Below are positions 373 through 27,116 of a stretch of DNA of 27,869 bases, one piece after another. The notes below the pieces were generated by a model. That model did not search any database and was not told the origin of the DNA. It saw only the letters and a program-made list of their open reading frames with translations. The DNA is taken from IMG/VR virus record IMGVR_UViG_3300025732_000210, positions 1 to 27,869 of that record; one strand, given 5' to 3'. The stretch comes from a virus. Each line of letters starts with the position of its first letter. Position 1 is the stretch's first letter. The position numbers and the translations under genes are program-made.

Positions 373-1770
373 TTAACGTGGGAGAGTTCTACCAAGCGCC
401 TGAACGTAGCGACCCATTGGTCCTTCAAGGGTGCTTTCAGTTAGCGCCTGTGGATCATTGGATGACTCTACTCTATCAAGAACTGAATCGTTCTTTACAG
501 CAGTTGGGAAATAGTTCTCTCTTAGTGTCTCGATTTTATCGATAAACTCTTCATCATTTGTATAAGCAACGTTCTCAAGCAGAGAAGCGAACTTGTCTGC
601 CTGGACATCTGTTAGACCTTCGCAAACAGCACCAATTAGTTCTGACTTGCGAGCCTCAGAGATAACGCTGCGTAGTTCAACGTTACGCTGAATTTCTTCA
701 TTAAGTTTTTCTTCTAGTTCCTCAACGGTTGAAGATAGTTCCTCAACAACGTTTACTGAATCTTCTGGAACGTCGATATAATGTTCTGCGAATAGGGCAC
801 GAAGACCTGAAATGAAATCTTCTGTTAGTTCACTACGTAGAGCGGACTCAACAGCAACTTCATTCTCTTCAATCCACTGTTCAACAACATAGTTTAGATA
901 GTCGTCAACGTTGGAAGCAAGTTCTTCCATGATTTCGTTGACTCTCTCTTCTAGAGTCTCGGCATATGCCTGTTCTAGTAGAGCAACCTCTTCTTCTAGT
1001 TTTGACTTAACTGCGGCTTCAAAAATTGTGGTAGCCTTAGCATGGAAATCTTCTGATAGGTTTTCACCTGCTAGAAGGGCATCAACATGCTCGGACATAT
1101 CAACTTCATAGTTCTCTAGTTCCTCAGCAATTTCTTCGGACTCTTCTGAAACGAACTCAAAGTTATCGTCAATGGCTTCCATGATTTCTTCTTCTGAAAG
1201 ACCGGCTTCAATAGCCTCGTTGATGAAGTCTTCTAGTTCTTCAGAAAGTTCAACGTCTTCGTCGCACTTTTCTGACTTACCTTCGTGCTTCTCTTCTTTC
1301 TCGTCTTCTTCCTCTTCCTTCTTCTCATACATCTTACGGGCTTCTTTGATAGCCTTTAGACGCTCGGCAAGAGAAATTCTATCTTCCTCGGAGAATACTT
1401 CTCCTTCAACATCTTCATCCTCTTCAAGATGCTTTGTTGGCTCTGCGTGTGAACCAGAACCCTTTACAGAGGTGTCTCTCTTCTTACCACCAGCAGCCTT
1501 AGCACCTAGATTTTCTTTTGCTGTAGATGTTGGTGTAGCGCCACCTAGATCGTCATAACCTAGAGTTGCTGGTGCTGCGCCTGGATTAGCGTGACGACCC
1601 TCAACTGCCTTTGAACCAGGACGTAGAGTCTTTGCGTTTGCTGTGGATGCTGTAGAAGGATCAACAGGATTTGGATTTGAGATTCTTCCTGGGGAAACCT
1701 CAGGATAAGCACCCTCTTCCAAAATCTTACCTTCTAGAACAGCCTTGGCTGTTTCTGTTAATGATGCCAT
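373..1770 (-). CDS. 22: Prohead core scaffold protein gp22
   Basis: Major scaffold of the T4-type prohead core, normally degraded by gp21 during maturation. The 465-residue product is highly acidic, with long helical/coiled-coil segments. Residues about 260-355 (including NYVVEQWIEENEVAVESAL and LRALFAEHYIDVPEDSVNVV) match the signature region of T4 gp22. The T4 protein is only 269 residues; the extra length here is a low-complexity N-terminal part rich in Ala, Gly, Pro and Ser (about 20-110) and a Glu/Lys/Asp-rich stretch (about 115-170). Many Leu/Ile-X-Glu sites fit degradation by gp21. The start ATG has AAGGAG upstream and a late-promoter octamer just before it. It sits between 21 and 23 as in T4. 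Confidence 0.93.
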   Translation of the reverse strand: MASLTETAKAVLEGKILEEGAYPEVSPGRISNPNPVDPSTASTANAKTLRPGSKAVEGRHANPGAAPATLGYDDLGGATPTSTAKENLGAKAAGGKKRDTSVKGSGSHAEPTKHLEEDEDVEGEVFSEEDRISLAERLKAIKEARKMYEKKEEEEDEKEEKHEGKSEKCDEDVELSEELEDFINEAIEAGLSEEEIMEAIDDNFEFVSEESEEIAEELENYEVDMSEHVDALLAGENLSEDFHAKATTIFEAAVKSKLEEEVALLEQAYAETLEERVNEIMEELASNVDDYLNYVVEQWIEENEVAVESALRSELTEDFISGLRALFAEHYIDVPEDSVNVVEELSSTVEELEEKLNEEIQRNVELRSVISEARKSELIGAVCEGLTDVQADKFASLLENVAYTNDEEFIDKIETLRENYFPTAVKNDSVLDRVESSNDPQALTESTLEGPMGRYVQALGRTLPR

Positions 1771-1802: not shown

Positions 1803-2450
1803 TCAAAGTTTTGAAATATAGTTTTCAAAAATCTTCAAGGCAACTTCTTCAATGTCATGTCGAGATGCTTCACGAATTAGTTTCTTTGCTCTTTCGTTAT
1901 GCATTTCCTTCCACTGACCATTTTCAAATACCCACTCTTTACCTTCCATGATGCCTCGCACAAATGCGTCAGGTGCGCTAGGGTCTGCTACAATGTCTGC
2001 CGCTGTAGCCAACTTAAAGTCGTCTTGGACTTGCTGATAACCATTGTGCGCTCTAAGAGACCCTACGCCTCTAGTTGACACACCAAGACTTGCACCGCCG
2101 TCTAGTAGACTCTTAACTATCTTTCCGTTAGGAGTATCTAATATCTTTGCTTTACCAATAAAGTTTGTTCTGTCAGGATGTAACTTAGTAATCATATGTG
2201 AAACACGATCTAGGTTGATTTGAGGATTCTCTGGATGACCTAGTTCACCAAATGCTCTGTTCTTCTGAACATATTCACGATTATATCTGTCTGCTTCTTT
2301 AGAAAGCACATTCATAGGATAGACACGACCGTTTCTATTCTGCTTTTCGGCTTGCATAAAAATACCTTCTATAAAGTAATTTTTAGTGCCGTCTTTAGCA
2401 GTTTCTACAAGGTATTGAACGTCTTGTATTTCTTCTCTAATAAGTTTCAT
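1803..2450 (-). CDS. 21: Prohead core protease gp21
   Basis: Serine protease of the T4 prohead that processes gp23, the core proteins and itself at (Leu/Ile)-X-Glu sites. From Met at 2450 the product is 215 residues, close to T4 gp21 (212). Signature segments: YFIEGIFMQAEKQNRNGRVYP, where EGIFMQAE is shared with T4; GELGHP with the likely catalytic His72; and LGVSTRGVGSL with the likely catalytic Ser125, followed by PSAPDAFV. A longer reading frame opens at 2501, but its extra 17 residues (MLKAVFIVWKN...) have no family match and overlap the preceding gene; the start at 2450 (MKLIREEI) is preceded by AAAGGA, although with an 11-base spacer. Lies between the gp68-like gene and 22 as in T4. Confidence 0.93.
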   Translation of the reverse strand: MKLIREEIQDVQYLVETAKDGTKNYFIEGIFMQAEKQNRNGRVYPMNVLSKEADRYNREYVQKNRAFGELGHPENPQINLDRVSHMITKLHPDRTNFIGKAKILDTPNGKIVKSLLDGGASLGVSTRGVGSLRAHNGYQQVQDDFKLATAADIVADPSAPDAFVRGIMEGKEWVFENGQWKEMHNERAKKLIREASRHDIEEVALKIFENYISKL

Positions 2451-2466
2451 ATACCTATTTATCCTT

Positions 2467-3087
2467 TTATTCTTCCATACTATGAAGACCGCTTTCAGCA
2501 CCTTTTAATGCTCCTCTAGCGACCTTGCCCAAGAAGCCGGCGACACCTGGCTTCTTATTTGGATCTGTTTCTTTTTCTTTTCTATAATCTATTTCTCTGC
2601 CCATAAGAGCGTTACGAAACTTTTCACCTGATGTAATAGGTTTATCTTTAACATCGTCTGATTTTTCGACTGACTTTGGCGGAGCCTTACGTCTTTTTTC
2701 TTGTCCTGTATCTACAGGAGCGGCATCGGATGCTGCCTGCATTTGCTGTTTAGTCGTTAAATAAGATTTTCTAAACTCAGATCCGCCATATTTTCTACCA
2801 AACTTAAGTGCCTTAGCAGTTAACTTTCTCATAAGCGGTTGTGCTTTTATTTTACCGCCTCTAACACGACTTTCTGGATCTGGTTGAACTTCTGGTTGAC
2901 CACCGGTTTTTTTAGTTGGTTTTTCAACTTCTCCAACTCGACCTAAAGCCTCATCCATTTTGCAAGCAACCATACGCTTCTTTTCATACAACTTCTTTTC
3001 CATAATAGCATCTAGTCTATCATTAAAGTGGGATTCTGCTAAAACAAAATCCTTGTCAATAATACTCTCTACAAGTTGTCTAGACAT
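2467..3087 (-). CDS. gp68-like prohead core protein (candidate)
   Basis: This 206-residue protein occupies the place of T4 gene 68, directly before protease gene 21. Its first 45 residues (LVESIIDKDFVLAESHFNDR followed by a helical EKKLYEKKRMVA segment) resemble small core proteins that precede gp21 in environmental T4-like phages. The rest is basic and low in complexity (Lys, Pro, Gly, Asp), ending in a Gly/Ala helix (VAGFLGKVARGALKGAESG) reminiscent of that in the neighbouring 513-residue protein. Ile-X-Glu sites such as IME fit gp21 processing. Its start codon overlaps the previous stop as TAATG, so the genes are probably translationally coupled. Function is inferred mainly from position and the N-terminal pattern. 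Confidence 0.6.
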   Translation of the reverse strand: MSRQLVESIIDKDFVLAESHFNDRLDAIMEKKLYEKKRMVACKMDEALGRVGEVEKPTKKTGGQPEVQPDPESRVRGGKIKAQPLMRKLTAKALKFGRKYGGSEFRKSYLTTKQQMQAASDAAPVDTGQEKRRKAPPKSVEKSDDVKDKPITSGEKFRNALMGREIDYRKEKETDPNKKPGVAGFLGKVARGALKGAESGLHSMEE

Positions 3088-3602
3088 TATGGTATTCCTG
3101 CTGCATTGAAGGCTGCTGGATCGGCTGTCTGACCAGCATCATAATCTCTATTGTCTTTCTTTAGATCAATATAAAATGTAGCGTGATCAAGATTAGCGAA
3201 ATCTGTATTTACAATAATATCACCATTAACATTAGATGATGGTGTAGAAATGGCGTCACCATGACCCATGCCGGTAAAGTTATAATCAAAGAATCCTTCA
3301 CCGATTGTAGCAAATGTTGATGTGCCATTTGAGTTGTTTGTTGTTTCCCACATTAATTCAATATAACCTTTATTCTTTGCTGCGTAACTACCAAAAATTC
3401 TGACAATGGATGTTCTATAAACATCTCTAGCATTTGTGTTGCCTGTCATAATCTTGTTACTGGTATTAAGAGCATATGCAAGACCAGATACGTCTAGAAG
3501 TTTTGTGTTTGCTTCATCGGTGCCATCAGAGTGAATAACATATCTGATTAATGCTCTTTTATTAGTATCAATTAACTTGGTTTGTGTAATCTCATTTGGC
3601 AT
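3087..3602 (-). CDS. Conserved virion structural protein, function unknown
   Basis: A 171-residue, mostly beta-predicted protein with few charged runs. Its pattern (RALIRYVIHSDGTDEANTKL, LDVSGLAYALN, IMTGNTNARDVYRTSIVRI, then GYIELMWE) is one I recognise as a recurring but uncharacterised structural protein family of marine T4-like phages. It is preceded by TTAGGA at good spacing and is followed by the gp68-like gene with a TAATG overlap. Its position among prohead genes suggests a head-associated or decoration role, but nothing in the sequence proves it. No transmembrane segment or signal peptide is visible. Confidence 0.7.
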   Translation of the reverse strand: MPNEITQTKLIDTNKRALIRYVIHSDGTDEANTKLLDVSGLAYALNTSNKIMTGNTNARDVYRTSIVRIFGSYAAKNKGYIELMWETTNNSNGTSTFATIGEGFFDYNFTGMGHGDAISTPSSNVNGDIIVNTDFANLDHATFYIDLKKDNRDYDAGQTADPAAFNAAGIP

Positions 3603-3604: not shown

Positions 3605-5146
3605 TTAGTTCCTAATTGAAAAGTTTAATAGTCTCTTGAAGGACTCTAGGTCTTCGTTTAACATACCTTCAACAATCTTTTTATTTTTGGTATTAACCGA
3701 GTCATATACTTCAAGTATTCTTTTAGCCATACTATTATTTAGTGTAACTGTTCTTCCGTTAATAGTCATTTCATGCAACTTATCTTCAGATTCGACCATA
3801 TTACGAATATCAGAAATCTTATTTTCTGCTACTTGTTTTTTACCTAGTCCTTCATACTCTTTTCTGATAATAGCATTCTTTCTGGCAGTATCAACAGCAG
3901 TTTCACCACCATGTCTAAATTCAGGTGTATGTATTTTTGCTTTTGCTTTGTTAATATCGGTACTTAAACGTCTATCTGGATTGTCAATAGTTTGTGAAGA
4001 TTTATCATCTTGTGATTTTCTTAGTAATTCAGATGCGGCATCTAAAGCTGCCGAACCACGTCCTGGTTTTGGAGTTGGGGCCGCTTTTCTAGGAGCCTTT
4101 GTCTTAGGCGTTTTGCTAAGTTTACCAGAAAGTTTTCCTAAACTTTTTCCAGCAAGTCTGGCGCCGCCTGCTAAAACTTTTCCTGCTCCACCTATAGCAA
4201 CATCAATAGCGCCGCTTTTTACCGCACCTGCATAATCTCCTTCTTTAGTCTTTTGATAAGCAGATGCACCTGGTGTTAGTTCTGTAGCAGTTTTAATAGC
4301 ACCGCCTAGATCGCTATAATCCATCCATGGCTTAACTTTTTCTTCTCTAATAATATTTAATTTATTAAGAAAAGACTCTTCACAGTTCCACTTACGAAGG
4401 GCCTTGTTAATTCTCGAATCAGGATCTCTTGCTGTCTTTGCAGAGGTCAAACGCTTCTTCATACCACCCATACGGGCACAGAAAGACTTACGACGATTGG
4501 CAGCCTTACTACCAGGCTTCAACTTTGAAGGTTTAGTAGTAACCGCAGTTTGTAGTTTTGAACCAGGATTTTCACGGCGATATGCCATGACACCTGATTT
4601 CTTTAAACCACCTGATGGATTTTGATGTTTTTTATCTGACCAATCTTCGTTCATATCTTTCTCTTGCTCTTTTGCTTTCTTGTAGGCTTTCTTTGCGCCT
4701 TTGTAGGCACCTATTGCCGCACCTACTGGTGTTCCAACCGCAATACCAGGTTCGGCAGCAATTGAATTACCTACATAAAAACCTTTCATAGCACCTTGAA
4801 CGGCGCCTTTAAGTCCACCTGCTACTGTTTTTGCGGCGGTCTTTAATGCGCCTTCATTCAAATCTAATTCTTCTAATGTATCGTAGATAGTTGCTTCACT
4901 AAGATTTAAATTACCAGTAGGACCAAATGGTATTGATAAGTATTTATCTACCGTTTTAGAGTAATATAATGCCACAACCTGTTTATTAGGATACATTCTA
5001 TATGTAACTCTTCTAAACATTAATAGATTAGGCATTTCAGAAGGTGAAGGAATTGGTGACAATTTATTCTCAAGCACTAAATCCTCAGGAATCTCCTGAG
5101 GTAAAAAGTTATCATATTCTTCTCTTAGTTGCTTGAGTGTTTTCAT
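3605..5146 (-). CDS. Glycine-zipper and basic-domain protein of the prohead gene cluster
   Basis: I do not know a function for this 513-residue protein. Visible parts: an N-terminal globular region (1-95); a Gly/Ala zipper stretch (about 98-160; GGLKGAVQGAMKGFYVGNS then GTPVGAAIGAYKGAKKA) typical of membrane-active or packing helices; a very basic domain (about 168-260; WSDKKHQNPSGGLKKSGVMA, SKAANRRKSFCARMGGMKKR, ARDPDSRINKALRKWNC), which resembles a phage domain of unknown function (probably DUF6321); a second Ala/Gly/Lys region (about 280-360); and a C-terminal helical segment (about 455-513). Leu/Ile-X-Glu sites (IPE, LSE, LNE before Gly, IRE) fit gp21 cleavage. ATG preceded by TAAGGA. Its place between the gp67-like and gp68-like genes suggests packaging inside the head (inference). 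Confidence 0.65.
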   Translation of the reverse strand: MKTLKQLREEYDNFLPQEIPEDLVLENKLSPIPSPSEMPNLLMFRRVTYRMYPNKQVVALYYSKTVDKYLSIPFGPTGNLNLSEATIYDTLEELDLNEGALKTAAKTVAGGLKGAVQGAMKGFYVGNSIAAEPGIAVGTPVGAAIGAYKGAKKAYKKAKEQEKDMNEDWSDKKHQNPSGGLKKSGVMAYRRENPGSKLQTAVTTKPSKLKPGSKAANRRKSFCARMGGMKKRLTSAKTARDPDSRINKALRKWNCEESFLNKLNIIREEKVKPWMDYSDLGGAIKTATELTPGASAYQKTKEGDYAGAVKSGAIDVAIGGAGKVLAGGARLAGKSLGKLSGKLSKTPKTKAPRKAAPTPKPGRGSAALDAASELLRKSQDDKSSQTIDNPDRRLSTDINKAKAKIHTPEFRHGGETAVDTARKNAIIRKEYEGLGKKQVAENKISDIRNMVESEDKLHEMTINGRTVTLNNSMAKRILEVYDSVNTKNKKIVEGMLNEDLESFKRLLNFSIRN

Positions 5147-5156: not shown

Positions 5157-5315
5157 TTACTGAGCAAAGTAACTAGAAGCAATGTCTTTTTTCTTCTCTT
5201 CAAGTTTCTCCATGGCCTTCTCTTGTAGAGCATACATGAGATTTTCTTTCATAGAAACTAGATTGTTCTCTAGAATGTCGTCAAGTGCTTCATTAATAAG
5301 GTCTTTGGTATCCAT
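5157..5315 (-). CDS. 67: Prohead core protein gp67, possible nested in-frame product
   Basis: The 3' end of the LT/LysM gene encodes a 52-residue segment beginning at Met566 (MDTKDLINEALDDILENNLV ... KAMEKLEEKKKDIASSYFAQ), the size and pattern of an entire stand-alone gp67-type core protein. The internal ATG (5313-5315) has its own well-placed Shine-Dalgarno sequence, AGAGGA followed by AACAACA, so a separate short product in the same frame is plausible beside the fusion. The segment holds INE and ILE cleavage motifs. Gp67 is an essential core component in T4. Whether it is made separately, released by gp21, or both cannot be decided from sequence. Confidence 0.6.
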   Translation of the reverse strand: MDTKDLINEALDDILENNLVSMKENLMYALQEKAMEKLEEKKKDIASSYFAQ

Positions 5316-7010
5316 TGTTGTTTCCTCTTTTGTTAACTTTTTAATAGCGGTTCTGATGCCATGTTCTCTTTTGGCCCAGGTCTTAATATCTGATTTAGGA
5401 CCTTCAAGTGACTTTTTACGTGACTTCGCACTCTTACTAATATATGATCCGAGTGTTTCTGCTTTTAGTTCATCAATCTGTGCTTCATCAAACTTAATTT
5501 TTTGTCCAGGATAAATTTTGTTTGGATCAGATATATGACTTGCTTTTGCAATTGTATTAACATCGGTATGATGTGACTTAGCAATATCTGATAATGTATC
5601 ACCTTTTCTGATAGTATAATTACTAGATGAAGAAGTGTCCGGTGTTTGTGGTGCTGACATCTTCTTGGCAACATCATTAGATGCAAAAGAAACACCGAAA
5701 TTCTTAGATGTTGTCTCTGGTGTCTTTGCCACTTCTGGTGTCTTAGGTGTCTCTGGTGGTTTGTTTGTTATCTCAGGTTTAGGTGCTGTTGATGTAGCAG
5801 GTTTATCAGAGGCAGATGCGCTCTTAGTTCCAATGACATCTCCTGCAAACTTTTGAAATCTTTTGTAATATGTATCCGCTGTAACACCAGGATTTGCTCT
5901 TTGTGCAGCACGACCCATTTTTCCAGCAGGATTGCCTGTAAAATGTGTTAGAACGGCTCCTCTTTCTCCGTATCTTTCTATCTCACCTTTAGCATTGCTA
6001 CGAGCCACTTTTTCTTGATAATCCGGTGGTGCTGAACTAGCATGAGGATATTTTTTAACATCACCTGGACTACCATATTTTCTAACAACATTTCTCCATG
6101 TGCTGTCTATAAATTGATACTTTCCTGAAGCAGAACTTCTTTTACTTCTTGCAGTATAAGGATCTTTTGTACCACCTGATTCCGTGCCACCTATACCTTT
6201 TAGATATCTATCAACCTGTGCATCAGAAACTTCTTCTTTAACAGGACGTGATGCCTTCTTTTTACCAGGATACTTGATACCACCCTCACGAGCCAACTTG
6301 CTTCCAAAGTCACCTGGCTTATAGTCGTCAGGTCTAGGAGGTAGATCAGCAGGATTTTGTTTGCTAATAAATCTTACTCTTTTTGCCTCATACATAGGAC
6401 GCTCTGTATATCTTGCCGGATTTGCCGGTGAACCTTGCTCTTCCATCTTCTTTGCCTGTTTTCTTGATTTAATATAATTTGCTAAATTGATTGTTGCTGA
6501 ACCTGGTGTGATGGCCCAACCAACTTTACCTGGTATACCTGTGGCCACAGAAGCAACATCTTTAATAGGACTTCCAACATTTCTTGATGCATTATCATAA
6601 GCAGTAGCGCCTGACATTACTGTAGCAAATGTGGCGGCTGTACCTGCGGCGTTTTTAGCTCTTTTCTTTACCTTCTCTGGTACTTTAGGTAATCTAATTT
6701 CATCTACCTTCATAACCTTTCTGGATGCGCCAGTATAATCACCAATAGTTTCTGAATCTCTTTCAGGCTCTGTTGATAGGCCTTCTTTCATAGAAATCTT
6801 GGACTTTTCCATCTTACGAAGTTTTTTATAGTAATCAGGTCTTTCTGATATATGGTCTCTAGCAATCTCTCTTGCATTTTTCATATCTTTATCATGTTCA
6901 TGCTCAACCTTAGAACCCGCATCAATAAGACTATTGACAGTCTTTTGACTTAGTTTCCATTTTTTAGCAATCTCTGATGCTGTTAATGTTTTGACGCTTT
7001 TTAAAGACAC
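5157..7010 (-). CDS. LT/LysM virion muralytic protein with gp67-like C-terminus
   Basis: A 617-residue composite. Residues 1-66 resemble the small phage domain DUF5661 (KVEHEHDKDMKNAREIARDH, then PDYYKKL). Residues about 100-185 are Ala/Gly/Lys-rich. Residues about 262-395 form a transglycosylase/lysozyme-like domain: GIGGTESGG with probable catalytic Glu277, then SASGKYQFIDSTW. A Pro/Thr linker (400-440) follows, then one LysM peptidoglycan-binding repeat (about 464-508; NYTIRKGDTLSDIAKSH ... IYPGQKIKF). The last 52 residues match prohead core protein gp67 of T4-like phages. A gp21-type site IDE (512-514) lies just after LysM. Start is GTG (7008-7010) with AAGGA six bases upstream and a late-promoter octamer before it. 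It directly follows the portal gene, where 67 belongs. Likely role: head-packaged wall-degrading protein (inference). Confidence 0.82.
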   Translation of the reverse strand: MSLKSVKTLTASEIAKKWKLSQKTVNSLIDAGSKVEHEHDKDMKNAREIARDHISERPDYYKKLRKMEKSKISMKEGLSTEPERDSETIGDYTGASRKVMKVDEIRLPKVPEKVKKRAKNAAGTAATFATVMSGATAYDNASRNVGSPIKDVASVATGIPGKVGWAITPGSATINLANYIKSRKQAKKMEEQGSPANPARYTERPMYEAKRVRFISKQNPADLPPRPDDYKPGDFGSKLAREGGIKYPGKKKASRPVKEEVSDAQVDRYLKGIGGTESGGTKDPYTARSKRSSASGKYQFIDSTWRNVVRKYGSPGDVKKYPHASSAPPDYQEKVARSNAKGEIERYGERGAVLTHFTGNPAGKMGRAAQRANPGVTADTYYKRFQKFAGDVIGTKSASASDKPATSTAPKPEITNKPPETPKTPEVAKTPETTSKNFGVSFASNDVAKKMSAPQTPDTSSSSNYTIRKGDTLSDIAKSHHTDVNTIAKASHISDPNKIYPGQKIKFDEAQIDELKAETLGSYISKSAKSRKKSLEGPKSDIKTWAKREHGIRTAIKKLTKEETTMDTKDLINEALDDILENNLVSMKENLMYALQEKAMEKLEEKKKDIASSYFAQ

Positions 7011-7025: not shown

Positions 7026-8888
7026 TTATTTAGTTTCTATTAATCTACCATTTTCATTAAGATGTGTTACCACACCATCGGATGTGGCATATCGTCCACT
7101 ACCAACATAAACTAGTTCTAAATCTTTAGCATGTTCGGCTACGGTCTTTTTCTTAGCAGGTGGTGCGGATTTCTTTGATTGTAATTGTGCAAGTTTAATC
7201 TTCTTATCCATCATGGTTGATTCGTGATCACGGCTTGCGGTCTCTGCTTTACCAGGACCTTCATCTGGACCAGTAATTTTTTCAACTTCTTTATTAACTT
7301 GTGCCTGTGCTATTTGCTGTTGAGCGCCAAAAGCAATCTGATTTTCCATATCTTGTTGCTGTTGTGCCTGCTGATCAATTGCCATTTGCTGTTGCTGTTG
7401 TGCTTGCTGCTGGGCAATAATGGCATTTTCTTGTTCCATTTGAGCATTGATTTCTTCAATGTCATCTTCTGTTTGTTGTAGAATATTTTTGCGAACCCAC
7501 ATTTGTGAATAATACTTACCAACAAATGGATCAACTTTAATTAGTGTATCAAGACGAAGATTAAGAAGTTCAGCCTCTTTTAGTTCATCAAAGTTATTGT
7601 CTTTTTTGAAGTCATACCAAATGTCTTCTTTGATTTCTTTCCATTCTTCTTCGGTACAAACTTTTTTAAGAACCAGTTGAACTCTTAGAAGATCATCAAA
7701 TAGTGAAGAGAACTTATTACGTAGGCGAGTAACAAACTTGTTAAACTTTAATTCGTCTCTTGTAATTTCCGTGGTACGACCTAATGTAAAACCTGGACTT
7801 TGTTCCATACGTGAAACAGGAACACCAAGTGCTTTGTATAGTTTGGTCTGAAAATACTTAACGTCTTCTAGTTCACCGAGATTTCTTGCACCTTCTAATG
7901 TGCTAATCTCGGTACCTTTAGAACCTTCACGGCGTGGTAGCCAGAAATCTTCTAGCATTGATAGATGCTTACGGTCGTCCTTGATTTCACCAGTATTGGA
8001 ATCGTAAACCAACTTGTTACGATACTTGACCATGATATCACGGACGTATTGTTCAGCCTTGACTGTTGGCATATTACCAACGTCGATATAGAAAACTCTA
8101 CGCTCGGGAGCACGACTTAGACGATAGATAACAGTGGCGTCCTCTACCATGCGTAGATTGTTAAATGGCTTAATTGATTTGTGTAGATAAGAAAGTACCA
8201 TAGTCTGTTTTGGATCCATGATACCAGAATTAATGTTTACAACGGAGTCGGTGGCAATCTTAGCACCTAGATTGGTACCTGAACCAATCATTCCTCTTTC
8301 ATTGTAGAGATAATATTCAATCTGTCTTTTGATTAGTTCCACACCGGTATTAGGATCACGCATCTTTTGAATTTCACGGATCTTACGAATACGGCGTGGG
8401 TCGATATACTTAACTTCTTGAATACCTGCATCAGGCATTGCTTCGTCAATAACAACTTGATAAAACAATCTTCCGTCAATATACCAACGACGAAAGATTT
8501 CATGTCCCATGTTACCAAAGTTAAGTAGTTTTAAGATATAGTTAAACTCGTCCTCAATACGTTTTTTTAATTGAGGTGTAAGTTTAACATCATCAAGATT
8601 AACATCAACAGAGGTACCAGAATCTTCTACTACGATGGCCTCGTTTACGATTTCATCAATAGCGGCCTCCATTTCTGGCTGAATGGATAACTCTCTATAC
8701 TTTGTAATAAGTTGTGTTTCATTACGAAATGTACCGTCAAGGTCTACATATGTTCCATAGTAACCAGCGCCAGCAACAGTTACCGCACCATCGTTATTCT
8801 CTGGTAAGGTAAATGTTTTCTGTCTTACTTGATCATCTAAACGTGGATCGACCTTGTCAGACCCGATCTGAAATCCGAAAAGTTTTAT
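7026..8888 (-). CDS. 20: Portal vertex protein gp20 (apparent AUA start)
   Basis: Dodecameric portal of the T4-type head. Conserved segments include MEAAIDEIVNEAIVVED, FRRWYIDGRLFYQ, YIDPRRIRKIREI, VIYRLSRAPERRVFYIDVGN, SKGTEISTLEGARNLGELED and PFVGKYYSQMWVRKNIL; the C-terminus is Gln-rich, then charged. The first canonical start in frame is ATG at 8672, but the frame upstream encodes 72 more codons that clearly belong to the family (KLFGFQIGSDK ... GYYGTYVDLDGTFRNETQLI ... KYRELSIQPE). No ATG, GTG or TTG exists in that stretch. Directly before KLFGFQIG stands ATA (8886-8888), eight bases after a perfect AGAGGAG and overlapping the HNH stop as ATAA, where ATGA would be expected. From ATA the protein has 620 residues (T4: 524). 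Portal identity is certain; the start codon is inferred. Confidence 0.93.
   Translation of the reverse strand: MKLFGFQIGSDKVDPRLDDQVRQKTFTLPENNDGAVTVAGAGYYGTYVDLDGTFRNETQLITKYRELSIQPEMEAAIDEIVNEAIVVEDSGTSVDVNLDDVKLTPQLKKRIEDEFNYILKLLNFGNMGHEIFRRWYIDGRLFYQVVIDEAMPDAGIQEVKYIDPRRIRKIREIQKMRDPNTGVELIKRQIEYYLYNERGMIGSGTNLGAKIATDSVVNINSGIMDPKQTMVLSYLHKSIKPFNNLRMVEDATVIYRLSRAPERRVFYIDVGNMPTVKAEQYVRDIMVKYRNKLVYDSNTGEIKDDRKHLSMLEDFWLPRREGSKGTEISTLEGARNLGELEDVKYFQTKLYKALGVPVSRMEQSPGFTLGRTTEITRDELKFNKFVTRLRNKFSSLFDDLLRVQLVLKKVCTEEEWKEIKEDIWYDFKKDNNFDELKEAELLNLRLDTLIKVDPFVGKYYSQMWVRKNILQQTEDDIEEINAQMEQENAIIAQQQAQQQQQMAIDQQAQQQQDMENQIAFGAQQQIAQAQVNKEVEKITGPDEGPGKAETASRDHESTMMDKKIKLAQLQSKKSAPPAKKKTVAEHAKDLELVYVGSGRYATSDGVVTHLNENGRLIETK
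7027..7034 (-). promoter_or_regulatory. Late promoter octamer ACTAAATA overlapping the portal stop
   Basis: The last portal codons read GAA ACT AAA TAA, so the octamer ACTAAATA is built into the gene end and its stop codon. AAAAAGGA and the GTG start of the LT/LysM-gp67 gene follow within 25 bases. Resembles T4 TATAAATA; not tested. Confidence 0.55.
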
Positions 8889-9478
8889 GGCCGTAACTCC
8901 TCTATTTTTTCACAAGAAAAACCTCTATGAGATTTAATCTGTTTATTGCCAATCTTCACCATAGTGGCGTAGAAAAGGTTATGTTTCTCGCAGAATGCTT
9001 TTAGGTTAGTCACCTTTTCTATACTCCCATTTGGAAATGTTACTATCCAATCTTTACTAAACAACTTTTTTATATCAGGTCTACTGGGCATAACCTGTAA
9101 TGCTCTTTTTGTCTTGATCTTCTCTCTAGTTTCTTCGGTATGAGCGACTTTATATCTATGATGTTTTTCGCCAGTATAACAGAATGGATTAGTACCTTTT
9201 GCTTTTCGTTCTAAAGCACTCTTTCTACCAATCTCTGACTGTATTTTAGAAATCTCTTCCGGTGATTTATTCATCCGCATAGAGATTGCTAAACACGCAG
9301 CCCAATCACCTTGTTTATAGTGTATATCATAATGTTCTTGTATAGAAACTGACACAAGATTGTTAATATCATTATTGGCACGGTTACCGTCAATATGATG
9401 GATCTCATAAGTTCTACCATCATCATCTACAGGAATTAATCCATAATGTTGCTCATAAATTTTTCTATATATACTCAT
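8885..9478 (-). CDS. Free-standing HNH homing endonuclease
   Basis: A 197-residue HNH endonuclease. The N-terminal half carries the HNH signature: YEIHHIDGNRANNDINNLV, then HYDIHY (two His of the first motif, Asn, then a distal His). The C-terminal part (about 140-192; DWIVTFPNGSIEKVTNLKAF ... YATMVKIGNKQIKSHRGFSC) looks like a small modular DNA-binding region typical of phage homing enzymes. It sits between tube gene 19 and portal gene 20, which are adjacent in T4, so it is an insertion. Its stop overlaps the apparent portal start, and its 3' end contains the portal ribosome binding site. The ATG has AAGGAG nine bases upstream, partly in a small hairpin. I see no room for a group I intron around it. 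Its target is probably an intron-less allele near the 19/20 junction (inference). Confidence 0.88.
   Translation of the reverse strand: MSIYRKIYEQHYGLIPVDDDGRTYEIHHIDGNRANNDINNLVSVSIQEHYDIHYKQGDWAACLAISMRMNKSPEEISKIQSEIGRKSALERKAKGTNPFCYTGEKHHRYKVAHTEETREKIKTKRALQVMPSRPDIKKLFSKDWIVTFPNGSIEKVTNLKAFCEKHNLFYATMVKIGNKQIKSHRGFSCEKIEELRP
8897..8903 (-). promoter_or_regulatory. Shine-Dalgarno of the portal gene, deciding an AUA start
   Basis: The minus strand reads AGAGGAG, followed by an eight-base spacer (TTACGGCC) and ATA, then the conserved portal N-terminus KLFGFQIG. The site lies inside the last codons of the HNH gene. Spacing is ideal for ATA and there is no canonical start nearby. Confidence 0.75.
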
Positions 9479-19626: not shown

Positions 19627-21153
19627 TTAGTCCCAGGATATTGTCACCGCACCGTTGGCTCCAGGACCAGCAATTCTTGCAGATCCGTCAGAGTTTCGGC
19701 CGCCGAGGCCTTGTGAACCCACTGTAACTGTTACAACGGTAGCAGAAGATATGTTAGCTGTGCCATAAGTTCTTCTGGAACTACCACCTCCACCGCCGCC
19801 TGAACCTATACCTAGCTGACGTTTACCTAACAAATATTGCGCTTCTGCATATCCTGATCCACCGCCACCATAAGGTAATCCGTCAGTTTTCTTTCCTGCC
19901 TGATTTTGATCTGCTGGAAAACTAACAGATACGTCCGCTCTTCCACCACCGCCTTGTGCTGTTGCACCAGCAGCACCACCATATCCACTATATGTAGTAT
20001 TGTTAGAACCGGCACGATATATAGTAATGCTGCCGGTTTCACCAGATGCATTTGTTGCACCTGTTCCTGATCCTGTTCCTCCTGCTCCACCAGAGTTGCT
20101 ATTGTCTGTCTGAGAACCTGTTGCAGCACCACCGCCAGTGCCTGTCTGCAATGAACCAAATGAACTTGTTCCACCTGCTGTGCCTGTTCCATACTGAGTA
20201 TTTGTTGAAGCTCCACCACCACCTGCGCCCCATACATTTACAGTCATTTGTGATGTAAATATAGGAACAACAAATGAATATGTTCCAGGGCTCGTAAATG
20301 ATTTAGAGCCTGAACCTTTGTCTGCGGTTTCTGTAGATGGAAATGATCTACCAGGGCCCCAAATAATTCTTACAGCACCGTTGTCACCAGTAGCACCAGC
20401 AAATGAAGTTCCTGAGTCTCTACCACCTCCGCCTCCACCCCAGTCCGATCCACTTCCTCCAGAACCGGCAGTACCATCACCACCATCAGATACGTTAAAA
20501 AGATCAGCACCACCGGCTACACCACCAGTGCCGCTTGATCCTATTGCACCATAAACATTAACACCTCCGCCTCGGCCGCCTTGGTCATTACCACCGCCTC
20601 CGCCTCCTCCACCTCCGCCAGCGCCGTTGCTGCCTGCTGTTGTTCTTGATCCACCGCCTGCACCACCATTACCAGAATATCCACCAGCACCACCACCACC
20701 TGATCCAGAATCTGCGTCAGCGGTTCCGCCAGCACCTCCGTTACCACCACCATCACCAGTATATCCGCCGCCTGCACCACCATTGGTTGTAGCACTAGCA
20801 CCACCTTTGACGCCGCCATTTCCAGCAACAGTTGCCGCAGATATAAAGTAACTCTGTCCTCCATCTTGGGCACTACCTGCTGTTGCACCTCCATTACCAC
20901 CAGCACCAACAACTACAGTATAATCAGCACCTGGTGTAACAGATATATTATTTTTATAACCGAGGCCTCCTCCACCTCCGCCTCCTCCACCAGAAGCATT
21001 ATAGCAACCTCCACCTCCACCACCAATACAAACCGCAGATACAAGATATACGCCTTGAGGACAGGTCCATGTAAATGTTCCTGCTGTTGTATATTCTGAT
21101 TGTCCTATTTGCGGTTCTTTGAAAGATGAAAATAAAGGTTGATTACTAGACAT
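19627..21153 (-). CDS. Poly-Gly adhesin-like protein
   Basis: 508 residues with dense runs of 5-9 Gly. Two related halves: the first (about 18-270) opens with YTTAGTFTWTCPQGVYLVSA and holds most poly-Gly loops; the second (about 280-508) opens with SKSFTSPGTYSFVVP and ends with GANGAVTISWD, while the first half ends with the similar GDNGAVRIIWGPG. This resembles the glycine-rich fold in which polyglycine-II helices pack between beta strands, as in the distal adhesins (gp38) of some T-even phages. It lies directly downstream of the giant fibre gene, with start and stop overlapping as TAATG, so it probably tips or decorates that fibre. Adhesin function is inferred. GGT/GGA/GGC triplets make the DNA highly repetitive. 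Confidence 0.78.
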   Translation of the reverse strand: MSSNQPLFSSFKEPQIGQSEYTTAGTFTWTCPQGVYLVSAVCIGGGGGGCYNASGGGGGGGGGLGYKNNISVTPGADYTVVVGAGGNGGATAGSAQDGGQSYFISAATVAGNGGVKGGASATTNGGAGGGYTGDGGGNGGAGGTADADSGSGGGGAGGYSGNGGAGGGSRTTAGSNGAGGGGGGGGGGNDQGGRGGGVNVYGAIGSSGTGGVAGGADLFNVSDGGDGTAGSGGSGSDWGGGGGGRDSGTSFAGATGDNGAVRIIWGPGRSFPSTETADKGSGSKSFTSPGTYSFVVPIFTSQMTVNVWGAGGGGASTNTQYGTGTAGGTSSFGSLQTGTGGGAATGSQTDNSNSGGAGGTGSGTGATNASGETGSITIYRAGSNNTTYSGYGGAAGATAQGGGGRADVSVSFPADQNQAGKKTDGLPYGGGGSGYAEAQYLLGKRQLGIGSGGGGGGSSRRTYGTANISSATVVTVTVGSQGLGGRNSDGSARIAGPGANGAVTISWD

Positions 21154-24100
21154 TAAGTTAGCCCTGAACCAGATATAACAAATACGTTAGATGCCACACA
21201 CAAAATATTAGCGACACCTCTTTGAAGAAGTGTTCTATCACCTGTGGTTGCTGTTCCTGCAAAGTATGCCGTGGTACCAGTTGTAGTAATTGTTTGTGAT
21301 GATCCTGAGTTATTAAATATGGTAACAATATCACCAGCACTCATAACGTTAGCTGGAACGATAATACCACCAGTAGTAATTGAAATAGTTTTACCGGTGT
21401 CTGTTGCCACTAAGGTATATTGTGATGATTTACTATCAACCGGCGCTCTACGAACGCTGCCGTGTGAATCAGAAATACTTCCATTAAATGTGTGAGTGCC
21501 GCCAGGTGTTCCCAATTGCAATCTATAAGTATTAACACCATCGGACCAACCACCAATTCTGAATACGTTATCTGTATCAAGTCCCATGTTAACAGCATAA
21601 GCACCGGCTCTATGGAAAGATACTGTTGCTGGTGCTGTGGTTGAACCTCTGATCGACATTGATCCAGTATCATTAGCAACGGATGTGTTGGCAGCAGTGT
21701 CGGTTTTACCAGTTATTAGACCTGTGAACACTGCTCCAGATAACGCAGCGTAACTTGATAACTGTGATGTAGTAGCATAGCCAGCAGATCCTGTAATTGC
21801 AGTAACACGACCTTGTGCATCCAAAGTAATTGCAGAAATACCGGATGAATATGAACCTGCGCCAGGTCCAGTTGAAGGTAGTGAAATTGTGCCGGTGGAA
21901 GTAATGGTACCACCGGACAAGCCAGTGCCTGCTGTAATAGAGGTTACACCGGAAGATGTAACATATCCACTAGGATTAGATGCCAAATAGAAAGAAGACG
22001 CCTGAATACCATCAACGGTATCAGCGTCAAGACCTGAACCAGAACCATCATTGCCAGCGTGCCATAATTTATTCCAAGCGGTAGTACCTGAATTGTTAGT
22101 TGCTCTATAATATAATGCATTAGAATCAAAGAAACTACCTGCAAATTGCATAGAGTAATAGTTAGCATCATTACTATGCGTTGATGTTATTAAATGATAC
22201 CAAGTTGCTGTGCTTTCTGGCCAACCATTTGCGGTTTGAGCGTTTGATGTTTGCCAAAAACCTGAATCAATTCTACTATTAATAGTATCGTCAGTTCCTA
22301 CACCAAATCCAGAAGCAGACTGAATAACACGACCTGTTAGTGTGCCTCCTGCTAGTGGTAGATAGCTGTTTAATTGAGTTGTGGTAGCATATCCTGCTGA
22401 ACCAGTTACGGCAGTTACTCTTCCATAAGCATCTACTGTTACGGATGAGATACCAGAACTGTAAGTAGCAGCACCAGCACCGGCAGTTGCAAGATCAATC
22501 GCTGGTGTAGTTCCACCAGAACTTGTTATTCTACCAGATGTTCCTGTTACAGACGTTACAGCATCTGTAATACCAAATCCTGAAATTGTTGTGGGCTTAC
22601 CTGTGATGCCAGACCAAGGTGCAGCATCTGCGTATCCTGCACTAATTTTTTGCCATGCACCAAGAGCATTGTTTTCAACGTATCTGATAGAGATGTATGG
22701 TGTAGTAACATTTCTTGGGTATGCTATATGCATACCGTATGATCCTGCACCAGTTGCCGGATATTCATTACCTAGACCAACATATTCAGAATAATATTGT
22801 GTGGCACTGTTTACACCAGGACCGTTTGTGTTTCCTTGAACGTATCTCCAACCAAAATTATAAGATGGTGAAGTGGCATCAAATGCTGTTCTTGTTCCGT
22901 GATTATCACCCATATTATTAAACAGACGATGTTCATCTGTCATATTATCAATAACAGAAGCACTTAATGTTCCACCAAGTGTTAAACTTCCTGTAGATGT
23001 AACTGTTCCTGATAGTGTAAGTCCTGAAACTGTGCCTGTTCCGGAGACAGATGTGACACCAGAGGATGTTACATACCCTGCTGATCCTGTAACGGATGTA
23101 ACTCTACCGTAAGCATCTACTGTAACAGAGGAGATACCAGAACTGTAAGTAGCAGCACCAGCACCTGCGGTAGCAAGATCAATCGCTGGTGTAGTTCCAC
23201 CAGAACTTGTTATTCTACCAGATGTTCCAGATACTGAAGCAACTTTACCATTAGCGGCAGCAAAGGCGGCAGTGGTGTTAGTTGCTGTAGCAACTGTGGC
23301 AAAGTCAACCGATAATGTTCCTGTTGAGGTAATAGTGCCACCAGTTAAACCCGTACCTGTAGCAACAGAGGTTACAGCAGACGTTAGATATCCTGCTGAG
23401 CCGGAAACGGCTCTAACACGACCATATTCATCAACCGTTATAGAGGAAATACCACCAGAAACAGCAGCGTTAGTACCACTAGAATATGTCGCAAGTGAAA
23501 CGGTTCCTGTTGAAGTGATAGTGCCGCCGGTAAGACCAACACCTGTAGCAACAGAGGTTACACCGGAAGATGTAACATACCCTGCTGAACCAGTTACGGC
23601 AGTTACTCTACCGTAAGCATCTACTGTAACAGAGGAGATACCAGAACTGTAAGTAGCAGCACCAGCACCGGCAGTTGCTAAGTCTATTGCTGGCGTAGTT
23701 CCACCAGAACTTGTTATTCTACCTGAAGTACCTGATACAGACGCTACCTTAGAATTAGCAGCAGCAAAGGCGGCAGTAGTGTTAGTTGCAACACCATTAG
23801 CATAAGCAAAGGCAGCAACACCATTTGTAGTTGTAGTAAATGCTGCTGATGCCCAAGCATTACCAGAAGCACCTACAACATTTGTATAAGCATTTCCCGC
23901 TGCTCCAACTGCCTGTGCATAGGTATTAGCATTTGTTACAACTGTGCCTGCGTAAGTATTACCAGCCGTGCCTACTGCCTGTGCATAGGTATTACCGGCT
24001 GCTCCAACTGCCTGAGCATAAGCATTACCGCTGTTAGCCATTGCTCCAGCATAGTTATTAGCAGATTGAATGTCTGTGTTGGATGCTATTAAGCGATAAT

Positions 24101-27100
24101 TAGTTCCATCATTAGTGAAGGTCCATCTATCAGAGCCTTCGTTCCACAATAGAGCAACGTTAGCAGATGATCCACGCTTTACTTCAACTCCAGCGTCTTC
24201 AGATGGTGCAACCGCAGCAGGAATATCATTATTCAATGTGATTAGTGCATCACCAATTAACAATGTTTGCGTATTGGCATATGTTACGACACCAGATGTA
24301 GTTAGATTACCTTGAACAACTAGATCGCCTGAAATGGTGTCACCAGCTTTTTTAACATAAGTTGTATTTGCAAATGTATTTGCACCATTGGCAGCAGCGA
24401 AAGCGGCAGTTGTATTAGTTGCTGTAGCAACTGTGGCAAAATCAACCGATAGTGTTCCAGTTGAGGTAATAGTTCCACCAGTAAGTCCTGTACCTGTAGC
24501 AACAGAGGTTACACCGGAAGAGGTTACATAACCAGCAGAACCAGTTACGGCAGTTACTCTACCGTAAGCATCTACCGTAACAGCGGAGATACCGGATGAA
24601 TATGATGCTGCACCTGCTCCAGCGGTAGCAAGATCAATAGCGGGAGTGGTACCACCAGATGACGTAATACGACCAGATGTTCCTGATACAGACGCTACCT
24701 TAGAATTAGCAGCAGCAAAAGCGGCAGTCGTATTAGTTGTTACACTATTAGCACTATTAAAGGCGGCATTAGCAATTACACCGGCCTGATTAGCAGCAGT
24801 AAAGGCGGCAGTAGTGTTGGCAGTAACGTTATTAGCAATCACACCGGCCTGATTAGCAGCAGCAAAGGCAGCAGTCGTATTAGTTGCCACACCATTAGCA
24901 GCAGCAAAGGCAGCAGTCGTATTAGTTGCTGTAGCAACTGTGGTAAAGTCAACCGATAGTGTTCCTGTTGATGTGATGGTACCACCAGTAAGTCCTGTGC
25001 CTGTAGCAACAGAGGTTACACCAGAAGATGTAACATATCCTGCTGAACCAGTAACAGAGGTAACTCGTCCATAAGCATCTACCGTAACAGCCGAGATACC
25101 GGATGAATATGATGCTGCTCCAGCACCAGCAGTTGCTAAATCTATAGCAGGAGTTGTTCCACCAGAACTTGTTATTCTACCAGATGTTCCTGATACAGAT
25201 GCTACCTTAGAGTTAGAAGAGGCGAATGCGGCAGTTGTATTAGTTGCCACACCATTAGCAGCAGCAAAGGCAGCAGTCGTATTAGTTGCTGTAGCAACTG
25301 TGGCAAAATCAACCGATAATGTTCCGGTTGACGTAATAGGTCCACCAGTTAAACCCGTACCAGATGCAACAGAGGTTACACCAGAAGAGGTTACATATCC
25401 TGCTGAACCAGTTACGGCAGTTACTCTACCGTAAGCATCTACCGTAACAGCCGAGATACCGGATGAATATGATGCTGCTCCAGCACCAGCAGTTGCTAAA
25501 TCTATTGCTGGCGTAGTTCCGCCGGATGATGTAATACGACCAGATGTTCCTGATACAGACGCTACCTTAGAATTAGCGGCCGCAAAGGCAGCCGTGGTAT
25601 TTGTTATAGTACCAAATGTAGCAACGGCAACAGCATTAGCACTGTTGGCCATAACACCAGCATAGTTATTTGCTGATGTGGTAGAAGTATTGGTATATGC
25701 TCTAGCGGTAACTAAGTTAGCATCTACAATGGTCTGCGTCCAAGAGTTACCGGAGTTGGCCATAGCACCAGCATAGTTGTTGGCTGCTGTTCCAACCACA
25801 TTGGCATAAGCATTACCTGAGGCACCTACAACTACAGTATAAGCATTCCCGGATGTTCCTACCGCTACTGCATAAGCATTGATAGAAGCAAACGATGCGA
25901 TAACATTTTGTCCAGCAACCAACAATGTGGGCGAAGAAATGTTAGCAGAACCAGTAATGTCTAGTTTGTAGATACTAGAGTTTGCTGCTCCTGTGCCGAT
26001 GCCAACGTTACCGTAGAACTGACCAAGTGTGATTTGCTGTGATGCGACATTAACCTCAATAAGAGGAATACCAGAAACATCATTGACTGCAAAGATTGAT
26101 CCGGTCAAATCATTCGTAATAGAGAATAACTGGCCTGCTGATCCTTCAAACGACAAAGTTCCGTTGGAATCAGGATAGTTTCTTAGAGTTACATTGCTTG
26201 TAGTGCTGGCAGAGTTTGTAATCCATACAAGATTAGATGTGTTTCTATAGAAAACATTGGCACTGAATGTATGATTATTAGTCCATGAATATGCTAATGA
26301 TGTATTCGTGCCGAGCGTGTTGGCATATGCATTGACTGAGTTAGCCATTACACCGGCATAGTTATTAGCAGCAGTAGTAGATGTATTAGTATATGCTCTA
26401 GCAGTTACTAGATTAGCATCAACGATGGTAGAGGCATAGTTATTTGCTGCTGTTACAGATGTGTTAGTGTATGCTCTAGCAACAACCAGATTAGCATCAT
26501 TGATTGTAGTGGCATATGCATTAGCAGCATTAGCCATTACACCGGCATAGTTATTGGCAGCGGTGGTAGATGTATTAGTATATGCTCTAGCAGTTACTAG
26601 ATTTGCATCATTGATTGTAGTGGCATATGCATTAGCAGCATTGGCCATAAAGCCTGCATAGTTATTAGCAGCGGTAGTTGATGTGTTGACATATCCATTT
26701 GCAGGAGTTAAGTTTGCTACTCCTGTAATCGGACTACCATTAATCAAAACATTAGATGCGTTGATAGTTCCGTTAACATCTAACTTATAAATGCTACTAG
26801 TTGACGATGTTTTACCAATGCCTACGTTTCCATAAAACTCGCCTAATGTAATCTGCTGAGATGATACATTGACTTCGATGAGTGGAATACCAGAAACATC
26901 ATTGACTGAAAAGATAGAGTTAGACAGGTCGTTGGTGATAGAGAATAACTGGCCAGCAGAACCCTCGAAAGATATAGTTCCATTGGATTCAGGATATACT
27001 CTAAGAGTTACATCGGTATTAACAGTCGTATTACCGCCAGAAAAGACAACCGTAGGATCGCCTGTTGCTGAACCTGTATTTGGTGTGATTACAATGTTCT

Positions 27101-27116
27101 TATAATTATTAGCCAT
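21153..27116 (-). CDS. Giant repeat-built tail fibre protein
   Basis: 1987 residues. In order: two copies of an N-terminal domain (about 32-120 and 306-394; SFEGSAGQLFSITNDL, NDVSGIPLIEVNV, QQITLGEFYGNVGIG); stalk repeats (ANNYAGVMANAANAYATTIN and relatives); six modules starting VASVSGTSGRITSSGGTTPA with SSGISAVTVDAYGRVTAVTG and a TGLTGG turn; an inserted domain near 950-1010 (GDALITLNNDIPAAVAPSED, LLWNEGSDRWTFTNDG) known from phage fibres; a region near 1390-1500 (MGDNHGTRTAF, YISIRYVENNALGAWQKISA); a fibre motif GLDADTVDGIQASSF near 1700; and a C-terminal domain (about 1885-1987; SSQYTLVATDTGKTISI, AGDIVTIFNNSGSSQTI) common at fibre ends. ATG has AGGA upstream and an exact T4 late promoter. 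Likely trimeric receptor-binding fibre. Confidence 0.88.
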   Translation of the reverse strand: MANNYKNIVITPNTGSATGDPTVVFSGGNTTVNTDVTLRVYPESNGTISFEGSAGQLFSITNDLSNSIFSVNDVSGIPLIEVNVSSQQITLGEFYGNVGIGKTSSTSSIYKLDVNGTINASNVLINGSPITGVANLTPANGYVNTSTTAANNYAGFMANAANAYATTINDANLVTARAYTNTSTTAANNYAGVMANAANAYATTINDANLVVARAYTNTSVTAANNYASTIVDANLVTARAYTNTSTTAANNYAGVMANSVNAYANTLGTNTSLAYSWTNNHTFSANVFYRNTSNLVWITNSASTTSNVTLRNYPDSNGTLSFEGSAGQLFSITNDLTGSIFAVNDVSGIPLIEVNVASQQITLGQFYGNVGIGTGAANSSIYKLDITGSANISSPTLLVAGQNVIASFASINAYAVAVGTSGNAYTVVVGASGNAYANVVGTAANNYAGAMANSGNSWTQTIVDANLVTARAYTNTSTTSANNYAGVMANSANAVAVATFGTITNTTAAFAAANSKVASVSGTSGRITSSGGTTPAIDLATAGAGAASYSSGISAVTVDAYGRVTAVTGSAGYVTSSGVTSVASGTGLTGGPITSTGTLSVDFATVATATNTTAAFAAANGVATNTTAAFASSNSKVASVSGTSGRITSSGGTTPAIDLATAGAGAASYSSGISAVTVDAYGRVTSVTGSAGYVTSSGVTSVATGTGLTGGTITSTGTLSVDFTTVATATNTTAAFAAANGVATNTTAAFAAANQAGVIANNVTANTTAAFTAANQAGVIANAAFNSANSVTTNTTAAFAAANSKVASVSGTSGRITSSGGTTPAIDLATAGAGAASYSSGISAVTVDAYGRVTAVTGSAGYVTSSGVTSVATGTGLTGGTITSTGTLSVDFATVATATNTTAAFAAANGANTFANTTYVKKAGDTISGDLVVQGNLTTSGVVTYANTQTLLIGDALITLNNDIPAAVAPSEDAGVEVKRGSSANVALLWNEGSDRWTFTNDGTNYRLIASNTDIQSANNYAGAMANSGNAYAQAVGAAGNTYAQAVGTAGNTYAGTVVTNANTYAQAVGAAGNAYTNVVGASGNAWASAAFTTTTNGVAAFAYANGVATNTTAAFAAANSKVASVSGTSGRITSSGGTTPAIDLATAGAGAATYSSGISSVTVDAYGRVTAVTGSAGYVTSSGVTSVATGVGLTGGTITSTGTVSLATYSSGTNAAVSGGISSITVDEYGRVRAVSGSAGYLTSAVTSVATGTGLTGGTITSTGTLSVDFATVATATNTTAAFAAANGKVASVSGTSGRITSSGGTTPAIDLATAGAGAATYSSGISSVTVDAYGRVTSVTGSAGYVTSSGVTSVSGTGTVSGLTLSGTVTSTGSLTLGGTLSASVIDNMTDEHRLFNNMGDNHGTRTAFDATSPSYNFGWRYVQGNTNGPGVNSATQYYSEYVGLGNEYPATGAGSYGMHIAYPRNVTTPYISIRYVENNALGAWQKISAGYADAAPWSGITGKPTTISGFGITDAVTSVTGTSGRITSSGGTTPAIDLATAGAGAATYSSGISSVTVDAYGRVTAVTGSAGYATTTQLNSYLPLAGGTLTGRVIQSASGFGVGTDDTINSRIDSGFWQTSNAQTANGWPESTATWYHLITSTHSNDANYYSMQFAGSFFDSNALYYRATNNSGTTAWNKLWHAGNDGSGSGLDADTVDGIQASSFYLASNPSGYVTSSGVTSITAGTGLSGGTITSTGTISLPSTGPGAGSYSSGISAITLDAQGRVTAITGSAGYATTSQLSSYAALSGAVFTGLITGKTDTAANTSVANDTGSMSIRGSTTAPATVSFHRAGAYAVNMGLDTDNVFRIGGWSDGVNTYRLQLGTPGGTHTFNGSISDSHGSVRRAPVDSKSSQYTLVATDTGKTISITTGGIIVPANVMSAGDIVTIFNNSGSSQTITTTGTTAYFAGTATTGDRTLLQRGVANILCVASNVFVISGSGLT
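22420..25580 (-). repeat. Six-copy fibre module array
   Basis: About 145-base core units that encode VASVSGTSGRITSSGG... and ...AVTVDAYGRVTAVTGSAGY recur six times (near 22.43-22.55, 23.10-23.24, 23.60-23.75, 24.56-24.71, 25.06-25.21 and 25.42-25.57 kb). The two rightmost copies share at least 65 identical bases, beginning at 25081 and 25441, exactly 360 bases apart. Copies keep the frame, with spacers of NTTAAFAAAN-type repeats of different length. Confidence 0.85.
25950..26200 (-). repeat. Second copy of the duplicated fibre N-terminal domain
   Basis: Encodes NVTLRNYPDSNGTLSFEGSA ... NVGIGTGAANSSIYKLDITG, a close copy of the domain encoded at about 26770-27020. Amino acid identity is high while the DNA has diverged at many third positions, so the duplication is not recent. 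Confidence 0.8.
26330..26690 (-). repeat. Stalk repeats encoding NTSTTAANNYAG units
   Basis: Near-identical units of about 190 bases. The stretches starting at 26341 and 26530 are almost the same for 80 bases. They encode TTAANNYAGVMANAANAYAT and DANLVTARAYTNTS. Confidence 0.8.
26770..27020 (-). repeat. First copy of the duplicated fibre N-terminal domain
   Basis: Encodes VTLRVYPESNGTISFEGSAG ... GNVGIGKTSSTSSIYKLDVN near the start of the giant fibre; paired with the copy at about 25950-26200. Confidence 0.8.

Follow-up and report, generated by a model that had tools for sequence, protein, structure and literature searches.

In phage lambda, the scaffold of the C/Nu3 pair corresponds to the C-terminal end of a longer head gene, read in the same frame from an internal start of its own, and the stretch shared by the two products carries the long form into the procapsid. 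Internal starts are also found within two T4 head genes, 17 and 21. In T4, gp67, the internal proteins (IPs) and Alt are core proteins, the IPs and Alt are ejected, and tagged foreign proteins can be packaged (PMC9958956; PMC9026906). IPI-III and Alt carry a capsid targeting sequence (CTS); they are core-targeted, trimmed by gp21, which cuts after L/I-X-E, located inside the head, ejected, and variable between phages (PMC9026906). T7 gp16 is a lytic transglycosylase that resides inside the head and is ejected at infection (PMC8954989).

The stretch of DNA analysed here, called the window, comprises 27,869 bases of an IMG/VR virus record and contains the clustered head and tail genes of a phage of the T4 superfamily. 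The order on the minus strand is gp17, gp18, gp19, an HNH gene, gp20, ORFs of 617, 513, 171 and 206 aa, gp21 and gp22. The gp20 is ~58% identical to Synechococcus phage portals and the gp21 ~60% identical to its Synechococcus phage counterparts. The features of the locus are as follows.

7026..8672, minus strand: portal gp20 (Portal_T4, E 7e-167), frame open upstream to about 8886
5157..7010, minus strand: 617-aa ORF with DUF5661, variable cargo (predicted transglycosylase, LysM) and gp67-like tail; homologues in 63 IMG/VR contigs
6804..6980, minus strand: DUF5661 domain, residues 11-69 (Pfam E 4.9e-12), found in 27/32 distinct family members
5829..6230, minus strand: predicted SLT-type lytic transglycosylase domain, residues 261-394, putative catalytic Glu277 (AlphaFold, weak sequence matches)
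5493..5618, minus strand: LysM domain, residues 465-506 (Pfam E 4.7e-15)
5469..5477, minus strand: gp21-type motif I-D-E, residues 512-514, the sole [LI]xE from residue 57 to the tail
5331..5468, minus strand: module LKAETLGSYISKSAKSRKKS...TAIKKLT, residues 515-560, common to relatives
5323..5330, minus strand: Shine-Dalgarno (SD) sequence AAAGAGGA serving the internal start; SD core and wobble G both present in 34/34 contexts
5157..5315, minus strand: very probable nested gene 67, from the in-frame ATG (residue 566, invariant) to the stop, 52 aa; phrog_1064 matches
3605..5146, minus strand: 513-aa neighbour, N-terminus MKTLKQLRE CTS-like, DUF6321 at residues 174-253 (Pfam E 3e-16)
3087..3602, minus strand: 171-aa gene in the portal-gp21 gap, conserved in relatives
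2467..3087, minus strand: 206-aa gene before gp21, with gp67-like N-terminus (residues 1-46; phrog_1064, hhalign) and variable rest
1803..2501, minus strand: prohead protease gp21 (Peptidase_S77, E 5.5e-36)
373..1770, minus strand: scaffold gp22 (T4_CASP, E 2.8e-68)

The 617-aa ORF starts with GTG at 7010, preceded by the SD sequence AAAGGA and 16 bp from the portal stop, and ends with its stop at 5157. It is this ORF, with the gp67-like tail as its 3' end, that lies directly after gp20, the place of the T4 gp67 family. In this place, in the helical core-protein segment and in the operon with gp21 and gp22, the locus resembles T4 gene 67 (gp67, PIP). However, T4 gp67 is encoded by a gene of its own as an 80-aa protein that has an acidic tail, whereas the sequence here lacks the acidic tail and lies within a long cargo ORF. 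Lambda C/Nu3 appears to be the closest arrangement, and gp67 is very probably nested in the same manner and not lost into the fusion. The long form of lambda is a protease, whereas that of the window family is a variable cargo and the protease is encoded separately. Compared with T4 IPI-III and Alt, the window family would use the C-terminal gp67 domain as its tag, carries many modules per polypeptide, and is located between gp20 and gp21. T7 gp16 differs in being a large podovirus ejectosome protein that is not tagged or proteolysed as proposed for the 617-aa protein.

We estimate at roughly 60% the probability that the gp67 tail brings the long form into the prohead, where gp21 trims it and it remains in the head. 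The first start would yield a modular cargo protein ending in the gp67 domain, and the internal ATG would yield free gp67 of 52 aa, from which the prohead core is built. Through the gp67 tail, perhaps together with DUF5661, the long form would be incorporated as the core assembles. Once the prohead is finished, gp21 would cut hydrophobic-x-E motifs between the modules, destroying the gp67 part and freeing the cargo (here the transglycosylase-LysM unit), which would stay with the DNA and exit with it at infection; the window's version of the cargo would then open peptidoglycan locally. Action of a packaged enzyme on the wall during infection is plausible because T4 ejects its internal proteins and Alt (PMC9026906) and T7 carries a transglycosylase, gp16, in its head (PMC8954989). 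What the sequence supports is that the ORF is a fusion, that its internal start is conserved, that the motifs are enriched and placed as described, and that cargo is exchanged between phages; packaging, cleavage, ejection and enzyme activity are what we infer.

The earlier note placed DUF5661, a transglycosylase, LysM and a 52-residue gp67-like tail in one 617-aa ORF after the portal, and this composition was confirmed on the minus strand. By sequence the SLT-type transglycosylase is sub-threshold (PF06737, E 0.13; phrog_4067, 1.6e-5). An AlphaFold model of residues 261-394 (pLDDT 79, built from a three-sequence alignment) has a lysozyme-superfamily fold: it matches almost exclusively members of the lysozyme/lytic transglycosylase superfamily, with lytic transglycosylases at the top (Z 9.2-8.1), and also a T7 core protein chain (Z 7.0). 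Foldseek E-values alone are not significant in the PDB, and the best in viral models is 2.8e-3. Glu277 is invariant across the three transglycosylase copies, which are mutually ~40% identical, and its position at the end of the first helix, in an E-S/T motif, agrees with model helix 3-18. The structure supports the prediction that residues 261-394 form an SLT-type lytic transglycosylase.

No description of the function of DUF5661 or DUF6321 was found in the papers searched. A DUF5661-like segment is present inside a DUF2213-annotated protein in the head cluster of the unrelated Vibrio phage vB_VpaM_VPs20 (L096:3404-4669), hinting that DUF5661 is a head-associated module. DUF5661-like proteins are also encoded between the terminase small subunit and terminase large genes of S-SRM01 (L094:5881-7707), where the protein carries related modules, and of DSL-LC02 (L095:4857-6854); no phrog_1064 match was found in these two genomes.

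The earlier note proposed to seek the same fusion in T4-like genomes; a gp67-like tail fused to a long ORF, mostly with other middles, recurs in 63 IMG/VR contigs, all uncultured, that were retrieved with the whole 617-aa protein and the tail as queries. In 63/63 contigs the tail is the C-terminus of a long ORF and no stop ever separates them, and each of the 11 larger contigs has the tail exactly once. The typical layout is DUF5661 at the front, a mosaic of short modules, and the tail last. Pfam analysis of 32 distinct members gave DUF5661 in 27, DUF6321 in 15, LysM in 3, DUF5872 in 2 and glucosaminidase in 1. Peptidoglycan hydrolases occur in 4/32 distinct proteins: the transglycosylase accompanies LysM in all three of its carriers (window, L061, L076), and the fourth (L070) has the unrelated glucosaminidase. 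A hydrolase is thus an optional module, one of many, and is lacking in most relatives. The cargo slot of two contigs (L052:3904-4872 and L099:455-1402) is occupied by a 323-aa domain, 74% identical between them, for which no Pfam, NCBIfam or PDB sequence match was obtained and whose AlphaFold pLDDT of 56 is too low; it is a candidate for a new packaged enzyme or effector.

The window protein starts MSLKSVKTLTASEIAKK, which is not a CTS-type N-terminus of ~10 residues ending in [LI]xE. Members lacking DUF5661 tend to start with a short peptide ending in hydrophobic-x-E, and the start of L053, MKSFKVFINE, resembles MKTYQEFIAE, the targeting sequence of T4 internal proteins, of which the T4 genome has two copies. 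This suggests that CTS-like starts serve as alternative front tags in some members without DUF5661. Among 50,697 named GenBank phages there was no homologue of the whole protein, and consensus-like query peptides of the tail and of the 206-aa N-terminus found no match. A scan of genome contigs with the tail profile yielded no confirmed match and therefore no hint of a host. When the transglycosylase-LysM region was used as query, a single locus that is not part of the family, L097, was matched, and the ORF concerned resembles a podovirus internal virion protein. A Gp5_OB search of the larger relatives found no match, and the controls were likewise without one, so this search has no bearing on whether they have a tail lysozyme.

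T4 gp21 provides the cleavage motif used here, which is short and degenerate and may differ for the gp21 of the window phage; in the 32 middles, with tail and DUF5661 excluded, [LI]xE occurs 152 times against 83.6 expected (z 8.4), an enrichment of about two-fold. As for the controls, [LI]xD has a z of 1.8, [LI]E is depleted, and [VMF]xE shows the same degree of enrichment as [LI]xE. The scaffold gp22, whose T4 counterpart is degraded by gp21, has 25 [LI]xE against 11.4 expected, and gp17, gp18, gp19 and gp20 are near expectation. The [LI]xE motifs sit at module joints, and their enrichment could reflect the joining of modules instead of cleavage. The earlier note placed the IDE site exactly between LysM and the gp67 part; it is present directly behind LysM, but a module of ~46 residues (LKAETLGSY...KKLT) precedes the tail, which begins at Met566. 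The same joint, [LI]xE-LKxETLG, follows the hydrolase unit in all four copies (window, L061, L070, L076), and none of the four units has an internal [LI]xE. Upstream, the unit is bracketed by LKE in L061, LNE in L070, IYQE in L076 and VKE, which is not [LI]xE, in the window. This placement would fit the release of an intact enzyme.

These features bear on the possibility that the long form is not delivered and has a role in head assembly alone, its modules being fillers of the scaffold or segments that bind DNA, which gp21 would remove, and the hydrolase being incidental or degenerate. Such a role would suit the absence of a recognisable enzyme from most members, the presence of DUF6321, a domain of unknown function, and the degradation of T4 gp22 and gp67 after assembly. 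It seems unlikely, however, in view of the recurrence of two unrelated hydrolase folds, one with an invariant putative catalytic Glu, and of the [LI]xE motifs being at the joints and absent from the enzyme units.

Assignment of the tail, on which delivery into the head would depend, comes from profile comparisons. The T4 gp67 family profile phrog_1064 ('prohead') matches the window tail with E 0.0016 and 15/18 distinct tails, at best with 8.6e-6; for comparison, it matches T4 gp67 with 2.9e-31, gp67 of Pelagibacter phage HTVC008M with 1.2e-7 and, at a weak 0.03, the P-RSM4 gene that follows the portal. By hhalign, the tail matches T4 gp67 with P 2.6e-4, and the profile scores against 200 shuffles give z 4.8 for T4 gp67 and z 6.9 for the stand-alone HTVC008M gp67. 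The latter gives an ungapped alignment with the tail of about 51 positions, scoring above all 200 shuffles. The similarity between tail and gp67 is short and pairwise weak. Isolated relatives have a stand-alone gp67-like gene directly after the portal, of 68 aa and with an SD in HTVC008M and of 116 aa in P-RSM4. Acidic stretches continue the T4 and cyanophage gp67 proteins, and the family tails stop before them; that of the window ends ...IASSYFAQ. Because an acidic C-terminus is absent from all family tails, they are called gp67-like (core-helix homologues) and not full-length gp67; of the complete gp67-like sequence claimed for the last 52 residues, the helical part stands and the acidic C-terminus of T4 gp67 is missing. 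Motifs of the [LI]xE type within the tail are INE-A, ILE-N, LQE-K and LEE-K.

The first codon of the tail is ATG in 34/34 distinct upstream contexts, with an SD core at the proper distance in 34/34; the contexts are related sequences and not independent, and their upstream amino acids differ widely. An SD core precedes other in-frame ATGs in 71/542 cases (13%). Where codon -4 encodes Glu, it is GAG each time (29/29, against a background of 19% GAG), and where it encodes Lys, it is AAG each time (5/5, against 43% AAG); GAA and GAG are both used for Glu inside the tail, and the AGGA/GGAG core is kept even after a change from Glu to Lys or a register shift (L039). Since the wobble G is kept while the upstream amino acids differ widely, it is best read as a nucleotide-level constraint, and the conserved SD and start under this constraint are those of a nested in-frame gene. 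Free 52-aa gp67 is very probably also made from the internal ATG. The long form starts with TTG or GTG in 21/32 members, which would favour free gp67 over tagged cargo.

A second site in several contigs, 1.5-2 kb downstream of the tail, is also matched by phrog_1064. It belongs to the 206-aa gene, among whose relatives phrog_1064 matches 16/19 N-termini and the first about 46 residues are conserved. By hhalign, this N-terminus matches T4 gp67 with 2.3e-5 and the tail profile with 3.3e-5. By these profile matches the clade has two gp67-like segments on variable sequence, one C-terminal and one N-terminal, and either the long-ORF tail or the 206-aa N-terminus is a candidate for the role of T4 gp67. 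A separate gene 67 elsewhere, which the earlier note counted against its own model, is partly present in the form of this N-terminus.

That gp67 is present as a fusion alone, as first proposed, is not supported, given the internal SD and ATG conserved in 34/34 contexts. A sole function as fusion tag, with no free gp67, agrees with the continuous ORF of every copy but is improbable, because synonymous sites elsewhere in the tail vary while the internal start is kept, and because a second gp67-like segment is present in the 206-aa gene.

It is quite improbable that the hydrolase is an endolysin or a tail-associated lysin that is in the head operon by chance. LysM is typical of endolysins and T4 has the tail lysozyme gp5; here, however, the hydrolase is inside a head-core protein encoded between the portal and gp21 genes, DUF5661 and gp67 flank it in frame, and the slot holds other modules in relatives. 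That the conserved SD and ATG are an unused relic of a recent two-gene fusion, an idea favoured by the separate HTVC008M gp67 gene with its good SD, is hardly credible, since the upstream sequence has widely diverged or been replaced, yet the wobble G is kept in 34/34 and the core persists despite the Glu to Lys change or the register shift.

Other genes of the window deserve mention. The 513-aa protein has 10 [LI]xE against 4.3 expected; its C-terminal ~75 residues (MAKRILEVYDSVNTKNKKIVE..; 3605-3830, minus strand) are strongly conserved across the clade and its middle varies, and this C-terminus is possibly another core or tag segment. A conserved internal start in the 513-aa gene was rejected, being inconsistent across members. 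The 171-aa gene may encode a decoration-type protein, judging from a by-eye resemblance to HTVC008M, and the true start of gp21 is probably MKLIREE at 2453. An HNH endonuclease-like gene lies between gp19 and gp20 (8885-9478, minus strand). The portal frame runs upstream without ATG, GTG or TTG to ATA-AAA-CTT (about 8886), where a relative (L002) has GTG-AAA-CTT, and the ATA may be an AUA start codon of the portal gene that overlaps the HNH stop. A 1987-aa fibre-like repetitive protein with many near-identical repeats (21153-27116, minus strand) is adjoined by a 236-aa LamG-like protein (27141-27851).

Of the earlier interpretation, the gp67-like tail and the site behind LysM are retained, and it is amended by the nested free gp67 and the second gp67-like segment. 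Its broader proposal, that a wall hydrolase is carried by a core tag, is strengthened by the recurrence of the fusion and by two unrelated hydrolase folds in one slot. Delivery as such is not a new idea, since T7 gp16 is already an example of a muralytic enzyme inside the head. More tentatively, the locus may be a general cargo cassette, in which a nested scaffold gene would provide both the free core protein and a fixed packaging tag, and in-frame upstream proteins between protease sites would be loaded, trimmed and injected, wall hydrolases being one class of payload. If this is true, a contractile-tailed phage would gain a head-borne wall enzyme. Protein sorting into the T4 core has been described as still mysterious (PMC9958956), and a core protein that is fused to exchangeable payloads and has an internal start would be an example of a tag encoded in the genome. 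The gp67 tail would suggest that T4-type heads can be loaded by a C-terminal tag as an alternative to the known CTS, and the family would let packaged payloads be predicted from sequence alone in uncultured phages.
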